This document shows, one piece after another, positions 40,024 to 42,106 of a stretch of DNA of 64,000 nt. How positions within the stretch are numbered: the stretch's first letter is position 1; each line of letters opens with the position of its first letter. Position numbers and translations under genes: made by a program. The notes under the pieces were generated by a model. That model worked only from the letters and a program-made list of their open reading frames with translations. It searched no databases and was not told the origin of the DNA. Origin of the DNA: a candidate division WOR-3 bacterium (GTDB taxonomy: Bacteria; Hydrothermota; Hydrothermia; Hydrothermales; JAJRUZ01); assembly GCA_039803925.1 (NCBI GenBank), contig JBDRZL010000002.1:62001-126000 (forward strand). The letters run 5' to 3'.

Positions 40024-41295
40024 ATGATTGATAGAAAAACACTACGTGAGAATCCTGAGAGGATTAAAGAAGGACTTCTAAAAAGAGGTTACAAATTTAA
40101 TATTGATGAACTTTTAGAAAAAGAAAAATTATATAGAGAAATTTTAACCTCAATTAACAATTTAAAAACAGAAAGAAATAAATTGACAGATGAAATTAAA
40201 AGACTAAAATCAGAAAATAGAAACGCAGAGGAACTTATTGAAAAATCAAAAAATATTGGAAAAAAAATTGAAGAACTTGAAAATAAAGAAAAAGAGTTAG
40301 AAAAGGAAATAGAAGAAAAACTCCTTGAAATTCCCAATATACCCCATGAAAGTGTTCCTCTTGGAAAATCATCAGAAGAAAATTTAGTTGTAAGGGAATG
40401 GGGCAAAGTAAAAGAATTTGATTTTGAACCAAAACCTCATTGGGAAATAGGGGAAAAACTTGGAATCTTAGATTTCAAAAGAGCTGGTAGAATGTCAGGT
40501 TCAAGATTTGTCATATATAAAGGTTATGGAGCAATGCTTGAAAGGGCACTTATTCATTTCTTTCTTGATATGGCAAGAGAAAACGGTTATACTGAAATAT
40601 TTCCTCCAATTCTTGTTAAAGATGAAAGTGCTTACGGAAGCGCCCATTTACCTAAATTTGATGAAGAGATGTATAAAACTCTTGATGAAAGATTATATTT
40701 ACTTCCAACAGCAGAAATGGCTCTCGCCAATCTTCACAGGGATGAAATTTTAAAGGAAGAAGAACTCCCTCTTTATTACACTGCCTATACACCATGCTTT
40801 AGAAGGGAAGCAGGTAGTTACGGAAAAGATGTAAGAGGGATAATAAGACAGCATCAGTTTAATAAGGTAGAACTTTTTAAATTTACAAAACCCGAGGAAT
40901 CCTATGAAGAACTTGAAAAAATGGTAAGAGATGCTGAAAAAATTTTACAAAGACTTGAAATTCCTTACAGGGTTGTTTTGCTCTGTACAGGAGATATGGG
41001 ATTTGCAGCTTCAAAAACCTATGATATTGAAGTTTATGCCCCGGGTGTAAAAAGATGGCTTGAAGCCTCCTCTGTTTCTAACTGTGAAGACTTTCAGGCT
41101 AAAAGAACAAATACAAGGTTTAGAAGAAAAAATGGAAAAATTGAATATGTTCATACTCTCAATGGTTCTGGTCTTGCAACTCCAAGAACATTTATAGCCC
41201 TTTTAGAAAATTATCAGACCAAAGACGGATCAATTATTGTTCCTCACGCTTTAAGACCCTATATGGGCGGAATTGAAAGAATCCCCCCTCAATAA
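40024..41295 (+). CDS. serS: seryl-tRNA synthetase
   Basis: 423 residues. The N-terminal long helical hairpin (about 28-100, Lys/Glu-rich) that clamps the tRNA-Ser variable arm is obvious. The class II core has motif 2 [28 protein letters not shown] and motif 3 [19 protein letters not shown]. It charges tRNA-Ser. Length standard. It overlaps the downstream aldolase-MazG gene by 23 bases. Confidence 0.97.
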
Positions 41296-42106
41296 ATTTA
41301 TATATTATTTTAATCTTTTATATAAAAAGGGATTATCTTATGGACTTTCGGGTAATGCTTCTTTAAGAGAAAAAGATAAAATTTATATTACACCAACTGG
41401 TTCACCGAAGGAAGGTATTAAAAAAAATGATTTAGTTGTAATTGATTTAAAAAAAGAGAAAATAATATCTAAATCAAATAAAAAACCATCTGTAGAGGCA
41501 GATTTTCATTTATGGGTATATAAAAATTTTAAAAAAATAAATTCAATTTTCCATGCCCATACTTTTTATGCAAACCTTTATTTTTTAAAAAAAGATAAAG
41601 TACCATGTGATGAAGTTTTAAAAAAAGAAAATATAATTTTACTAAAAGAAAAAAAATGGAAGGAAAGAATTAAAAATAAAATAAATGAAAATACAAAAAT
41701 ATTACATATTAAAAATCATGGAACCTTTTCCCTTGGAAAATCACCAGAAGAAGCTTTTGCGATTTTAGATCATTTTGAAAATTTATGTAGGATTGAGTTT
41801 GTAAAGACTGAAGGTTTAAAAATAAAAGAATCTCAAAATTTAATAAAGGAAATTTACTTTGAAAGGGATTCAAAAAGAGAATTTACAAAAAATGTTTTAT
41901 GGTTTGTAGAGGAAGTGGGGGAATTTTTGCAGGCAATAAGGAAAGGAGATAAATCAAAAATAGAAGAAGAAACTGCTGATACTTTTGCATGGTTTTTAAC
42001 TTTATGCAATCTATTAAATTTAAACCTTGAAGAAATTTTTTTTAAAAAATACACTCAATTCTGTCCAAGATGTAAAAAGAAACCCTGTGAATGTCAGAAT
42101 ATTTGA
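41273..42106 (+). CDS. class II aldolase fused to a MazG-type pyrophosphohydrolase
   Basis: 277 residues in one uninterrupted frame with a TTG start inside the end of serS. Residues 1-180 match class II aldolase/adducin proteins: GLSGNASLR (24-32), PTGSPKEG (41-48), PSVEADFH with Glu75, and zinc-ligand histidines H94, H96 (HAH) and H149 (NHG). Residues about 205-260 match the MazG-like fold, with metal-binding acidic pairs in EEVGE (213-217) and EETAD (232-236). A CxxC-x4-CxC tail (C264, C267, C272, C274) may bind zinc. The first half should cleave or epimerise a sugar phosphate and the second hydrolyse a nucleoside triphosphate; the joint role is unknown. Confidence 0.72.

Follow-up and report, generated by a model that had tools for sequence, protein, structure and literature searches.

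The 64,000-nucleotide stretch of a candidate division WOR-3 genome analysed here (the window) contains a single gene in which a class II aldolase is read through into a MazG-type nucleotide pyrophosphohydrolase. This locus raises the questions of whether the fusion is real, how it could have arisen, and whether the two domains serve a common pathway. The features on which the analysis rests are as follows:

41273-42106, forward strand: fused aldolase-MazG gene, 277 aa, TTG start (open reading frame; matching fusion in G001-G003)
41273-41806, forward strand: class II aldolase domain, residues 1-178 (PF00596; alignments; AlphaFold2 model and PDB structural matches)
41807-41815, forward strand: short linker, approximately residues 179-181 (AlphaFold2 model; alignments with standalone aldolases and MazGs)
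41816-42103, forward strand: small MazG domain, residues 182-277 (PF03819; 1vmg by sequence and structure)
40024-41295, forward strand: serS, seryl-tRNA synthetase, with a 23-base overlap with the fusion (Pfam; order repeated in G001-G003)

The open reading frame at 41273-42106 (forward strand) is a single uninterrupted one of 277 codons, starts with TTG and overlaps with its 5' end the final 23 bases of serS (40024-41295); the reverse strand of the same stretch carries many stops in the frame read. A search across 147 genomes of the phylum revealed the uninterrupted fusion in all four examined genomes of family f1 (G000-G003), which represent two genera, with identities to the window protein of 95, 64 and 63 % (95, 63 and 62 % if two of them are read from an earlier GTG). 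Each f1 genome yielded one match to the query, so that neither part was detected in this family outside the fusion. Among the matches listed, none from the 143 genomes of the phylum outside f1 spans both parts; matches to either part or both were obtained in 121 of the 147 genomes, many of which match one part without the other. In the Thermococcus phylum, 105 of 115 genomes have matches, many of them holding both genes apart, and again no spanning match was present among those listed, although adjacent halves that each match weakly could escape the spanning-match lists of both phyla. The aldolase was matched in eight of 12 further genomes reached via loci of other lineages, none of the 12 having a spanning match. 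The scan of genome contigs covered the best 80 of 326 places. These 80 lie without exception within residues 143-277, and fusions may thus rank lower.

Between G000 and G001, the whole gene displays a dN/dS of 0.29 (14 synonymous and 17 nonsynonymous differences) and the aldolase part one of 0.22, while the value of 0.68 for the MazG part derives from two synonymous versus six nonsynonymous differences, a number insufficient to demonstrate constraint. An assembly or annotation artefact, suspected at the outset from a fusion seen in one window, has become a practically negligible explanation in view of four genomes, two genera, an unbroken frame and dN/dS below 1; with the fusion intact in every f1 genome examined, assembly error is excluded. 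The aldolase-MazG fusion is genuine, stable and lineage-specific. The sequence-only reading made earlier of this DNA had described one continuous 277-codon frame, which is borne out across four genomes and two genera, and had named adjacent separate genes with an intervening stop codon in relatives as the sign of an assembly error; in relatives the genes are separate and were not observed side by side at the loci examined. The domain search that it had advised retrieved the fusion throughout f1, and separate neighbours at 0 of 127 non-fusion MazG loci. Full-text literature searches found no earlier report of an aldolase-MazG pairing, and neither the literature nor 258 further genomes, among the matches listed, provided an earlier fusion of these families; the pairing is apparently new, both kinds of component being already known.

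Residues 8-175 of the fused protein match the Pfam family Aldolase_II (PF00596; E 6.5e-33, 114.6 bits versus a gathering threshold of 22.2), and fuculose-phosphate aldolases are nearest to this part in a PDB sequence search (4c25, E 1.8e-10). Twelve site positions are invariant in the four fusions (G27, N28, S30, T40, G43, S73, E75, H79, H94, H96, H149 and G150), including the predicted metal ligands His94, His96 and His149 as well as the catalytic Glu75. The roles of these residues, also those of the phosphate site (G27, N28, T40, G43, S73), are presumed to be as in E. coli FucA. From its ligands, the putative metal of the aldolase part would be zinc; the related DrdA uses manganese (PMC6079011, partial text). 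The structural search of PDB with the whole AlphaFold2 model covered residues 1-184 (for the MazG part, a model and a search of its own were made) and gave Z scores of about 21, with B. thetaiotaomicron FucA (21.2), E. coli YgbL (21.0), DrdA (21.0) and others tied; the structures 6btg and 6btd, whose codes are assigned to DrdA in PMC6079011 (partial text), are within 1 Z unit of the best match. The aldolase part remains under the cut-off of all 25 curated aldolase-family models listed, among them the L-fuculose-phosphate aldolase equivalogs NF040649 (FucA_Meth; 82.9 versus 250 bits) and TIGR01086 (51.6 versus 400.25 bits) and the methylthioribulose-1-phosphate dehydratase MtnB (TIGR03328; 72.9 versus 137.05 bits).

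The C-terminal part matches Pfam MazG (PF03819) with residues 205-266 (E 2.1e-9, 37.9 bits versus a gathering threshold of 22) and S. solfataricus MazG (1vmg) with residues 182-260 (E 5.3e-16). Its single-chain AlphaFold2 model has the helical MazG fold, as judged by comparison with the 1vmg structure (Z 13.8, 83 aligned residues, 1.2 A). Both the acidic motif E-x2-E-x15-E-x2-D (E214, E217, E233, D236) and the tail C-x2-C-x4-C-x-C (C264, C267, C272, C274) are invariant in a 42-row alignment. The four acidic residues correspond to Glu35, Glu38, Glu54 and Asp57 of 1vmg (model residues 2-84 versus chain residues 1-83), which are named as metal-binding in PMC2954211 (partial text). By a simple pattern, the four-cysteine tail is present in 131 of 131 MazG loci, a set that includes the four fusions and duplicates (L007/L126, L011/L121, L012/L125 and, by record, L006/L093 and L012/L104); the tail is therefore a trait of the family and no extra of the fusion. 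Long open frames around MazG were observed in some Planctomycetota and at other loci; at L207, with a frame of 597 codons, the upstream residues resemble frame read-through in GC-rich DNA.

AlphaFold2 models the fusion as two confident domains (mean pLDDT 91, pTM 0.69), with a helix (158-178), a short linker and a further helix (184-200) at the junction. The linker between the domains comprises three to five residues. In the alignments (A2 and A4, for which 35 of 49 aldolases and 38 of 78 MazGs were taken), the junction is located within a few residues of the positions where shorter standalone aldolases end and standalone MazGs start, and the two proteins are thus fused nearly end to end. In part, the sequence-only reading stands, namely with its domain calls, the intact aldolase histidines (His94, His96 and His149 in all four fusions), the MazG-like domain with its acidic metal motifs (four invariant residues in a part matching PF03819) and the genuine fusion; its four-cysteine tail exists and is nothing special, and of the roles that it had suggested, 5-deoxyribose-type salvage stays conditional and detoxification of a nucleotide-sugar hypothetical.

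The genes around the fusion point to its probable origin. In each of the four f1 genomes, the fusion gene starts inside the end of serS. Behind the fusion, the window harbours a gene (42139-42726) whose 195-aa product matches an outer-membrane beta-barrel family below the threshold (25.0 versus 28.7 bits). Relatives of this gene occupy that place in G002 and, truncated by the end of the contig, in G001, but not in G003. In G004, the only other genome of the same order among the matches listed, serS overlaps a gene for a standalone MazG of 95 aa, and no aldolase match was detected. Standalone aldolases were taken from the matches listed in the phylum at 57 places, 53 of which were counted after setting aside two at contig ends and two without a called open reading frame (the aldolase tree and the site table contain 54 standalone rows, one 84-aa fragment also having been dropped). 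Among these matches, serS lies directly upstream of the aldolase gene on the same strand in 34 of 53 loci from nine families (loci among L132-L200), and script-based calls have the two genes overlapping in 25 of these 34; alaS follows next in nine loci. Pfam confirms serS in two loci and alaS in two. The upstream gene is one other than serS in the remaining 19 loci, which belong to nine further families. Nearby serS matches were detected at 131 MazG loci only for the four fusions and G004 (flanks of 1.5 or 4 kb, shorter where contigs end), and no aldolase match was found near any of the 127 non-fusion MazG loci (flanks of 1.5-4 kb, less at contig ends). Ten aldolase loci in eight genomes of other lineages, checked with flanks of up to 1.5 kb, showed no serS beside the aldolase, which itself was refound in seven of the ten. 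None of the loci examined has serS, aldolase and mazG as consecutive, unfused genes.

Since the position behind serS is common to the standalone aldolase in the phylum and to mazG in G004, the fusion probably arose by a merger of neighbours in a serS operon. This context, absent from the sequence-only reading, offers a simpler origin for the fusion. The ancestor of the order may have had the three genes consecutively, in the order serS, aldolase, mazG; in f1, the stop codon of the aldolase and the start of mazG would then have been lost to give one protein, while the line of G004 would have lost the aldolase and retained mazG behind serS.

Trees of the two parts bear on their relationships. 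In the aldolase tree, the fusions form a long branch next to f14 and f37 aldolases without serS linkage, a placement that is not trusted; a grouping of the fusions with aldolases of their class is not rejected (p-AU 0.257). In the MazG tree, calculated with 75 of the 131 rows, the f1 and G004 sequences group with Thermococcus, most Planctomycetota rows and family f27 at modest support (90/89). They (L008 and the MazG part of the window) are apart from their other class mates, with Thermococcus nearest by path, which provides a hint of gene transfer affecting the MazG part.

The linkage with serS also allows for a different view of the aldolase, in which it would serve seryl-tRNA synthetase or translation instead of cleaving sugar phosphates, MazG having been recruited to this role. 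Besides the recurrent gene order (serS directly before the aldolase at 34 of the 53 loci, spread over nine families, and alaS behind it at nine), this view draws on family f18, where all 11 serS-linked aldolase homologues are devoid of two of the three metal histidines:

L134 (1461-2024), L135 (3996-4559), L139, L164-L166, L169, L171-L173 and L179: f18 aldolases without two metal histidines (site table)

The replacements are His94 to Leu and His149 to Tyr in window numbering; ten of the 11 retain the other ten checked positions, and L164 additionally has Ser for Gly43. Since the f18 protein was kept beside serS after loss of the metal site, its sequence suggests for some serS-linked members a function different from metal-site catalysis. 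The gene order may, however, be inherited rather than functional, and the three histidines together with Glu/Asp are present in all four fusions and in 43 of 54 standalone rows (47 of 58 overall). Furthermore, the other-lineage loci described above lack serS beside the aldolase, and a literature search on serS with a class II aldolase neighbourhood, judged by titles and the beginnings of abstracts, gave nothing on this pair, leaving the proposed link to translation without a published counterpart there. A translation-related role is accordingly rated improbable, and its extended form, with the serS-linked aldolase-fold protein as a conserved partner of SerRS or translation that has dispensed with the metal site in f18 and by fusion with MazG in f1 joins clean-up to tRNA charging, is put forward as a speculation of low probability. 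The serS-aldolase pair across nine families, including a branch without the full metal site, is directly testable and represents a more open question than the fusion itself.

For the fused protein, a merger of ordinary neighbour genes is preferred, with two catalytic and largely independent clean-up modules that require no shared intermediate; this reading is held with slightly better than even confidence, and the merger probably reflects the joining of neighbouring genes rather than a new pathway. The N-terminal domain would hold a metal by three histidines and, with Glu75 as acid/base, split a ketose 1-phosphate, releasing an aldehyde and dihydroxyacetone phosphate; 5-deoxyribulose 1-phosphate (or methylthioribulose 1-phosphate), supplied by the MtnA-family isomerase of the genome, would be the likeliest substrate. 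The C-terminal domain would pair with a second copy to form a four-helix, metal-dependent site converting NTPs to monophosphates and pyrophosphate, and the aldolase oligomer may bring the MazG partners together. From family knowledge and the intact residues, hydrolysis of NTPs is the probable activity of the MazG part. The aldolase, as far as its sequence indicates, probably acts on a 5-deoxypentulose phosphate to yield dihydroxyacetone phosphate, and we infer 5-deoxypentulose salvage to be its likeliest role; DrdA cleaves 5-deoxyribulose 1-phosphate (PMC6079011, partial text).

The 5-deoxyribose-type salvage raised by the sequence-only reading is compatible with an MtnA-family isomerase scoring over the cut-off in G000-G003 and with DrdA ranking among the top structural matches. 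The same isomerase occurs in genomes without a detected aldolase (e.g., G004, G005, G009 and G010). In G000, about 65 kb separate the phosphorylase gene from the fusion, the isomerase being encoded on a different contig, and a gene cluster for 5-deoxyribose salvage or a DHAP shunt (kinase or phosphorylase plus isomerase) is absent at the fusion. Two other routes were tried: the nucleoside phosphorylase homologues of f1 reach 82-87 bits, far under the MTA phosphorylase cut-off of 274.85 (that of G000 we take to be an oxopurine-type phosphorylase), and an MTA/SAH nucleosidase has no match in f1. At the f37 locus L180, the gene overlapped by the aldolase (584 aa, 1733-3487) codes for an aldehyde ferredoxin oxidoreductase according to Pfam, a neighbour that fits an aldehyde-forming aldolase in the f37 group. 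The 584-aa gene at L181 (f37; 4081-5835) is likewise overlapped by the aldolase and resembles the L180 gene by eye.

Gene fusion often marks functional coupling, and the two domains could accordingly act in one pathway, in which MazG would act on a nucleotide and the aldolase would receive the resulting breakdown product, as a coupled salvage or detoxification enzyme. Retention of the fusion across 62-95 % identity and two genera with both sites intact argues in the same direction. Outside f1, however, the two genes were never seen as neighbours (0 of the 127 non-fusion loci), which leaves a shared pathway possible and unsupported; many genomes match one part without the other among the matches listed, and adjacency of both partners to serS provides a route to fusion that needs no pathway. 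A shared pathway is for these reasons considered unlikely, albeit of consequence: if the two reactions were coupled, the fusion would give a lead on which substrate the small MazGs with four cysteines use.

A more specific assignment would make the protein a gap filler in folate synthesis, with MazG removing pyrophosphate from dihydroneopterin triphosphate and the aldolase replacing FolB. FolB is indeed without a match in 52 of 60 relatives (G000-G059), including all of f1, and FolK is present in 56 of the 60, including three of the four f1 genomes (no match in G002). Each f1 genome, however, possesses two PTPS homologues. One of those in G000 adjoins a radical SAM gene read as queE, and the other (114 aa) has ExxH like PTPS-III, which bypasses FolB; compared to the PTPS-III motif ExxHGH (PMC5041015, partial text), it contains HEH instead of HGH. 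On sequence grounds, this ExxH-bearing homologue is probably the FolB bypass of G000. Moreover, G004, G005, G009 and G010 have FolK and lack both FolB and a detected aldolase. Weakened by these PTPS-III-like and QueD-like homologues, the folate assignment is very improbable. PTPS homologues were detected in 55 of the 60 relatives.

Several known systems can be compared with the fusion. The aldolase part shares its Pfam family, metal ligands, catalytic Glu and fold (Z about 21) with L-fuculose-1-phosphate aldolase and DrdA, from which it differs by scores far under the cut-offs of curated single-function models, by the missing salvage gene cluster and by the C-terminal MazG; its second and third metal histidines are closer together in sequence than in the standalone aldolase rows. 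The MazG part resembles S. solfataricus SSO3215 (1vmg), its nearest relative of solved structure, with 41 % identity, a Z of 13.8 and all four acidic metal residues, but sits behind an aldolase, and the 83 aligned residues of 1vmg stop before the four-cysteine tail; the 1vmg site has no known biological ligand according to the partial text of PMC2954211. From the small archaeal and bacterial MazGs with the four-cysteine tail, the f1 MazG likewise differs by its fusion behind an aldolase. Class II aldolase-fold domains are known from other fusions, i.e., with a HAD phosphatase in plant DEP1 (PMC6079011, partial text) and with a second catalytic domain in Tetrahymena MtnBD (PMC6302742, partial text). 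The domains of DEP1 and MtnBD catalyse, as far as these partial texts go, methionine salvage steps of one pathway, whereas MazG has no known link of this kind. A C-terminal domain of the MazG superfamily within a bifunctional enzyme is likewise found in HisIE (7bgn, plant HISN2; PMC10242683, partial text), where the two domains, phosphoribosyl-ATP pyrophosphohydrolase and cyclohydrolase, act in sequence in histidine synthesis.
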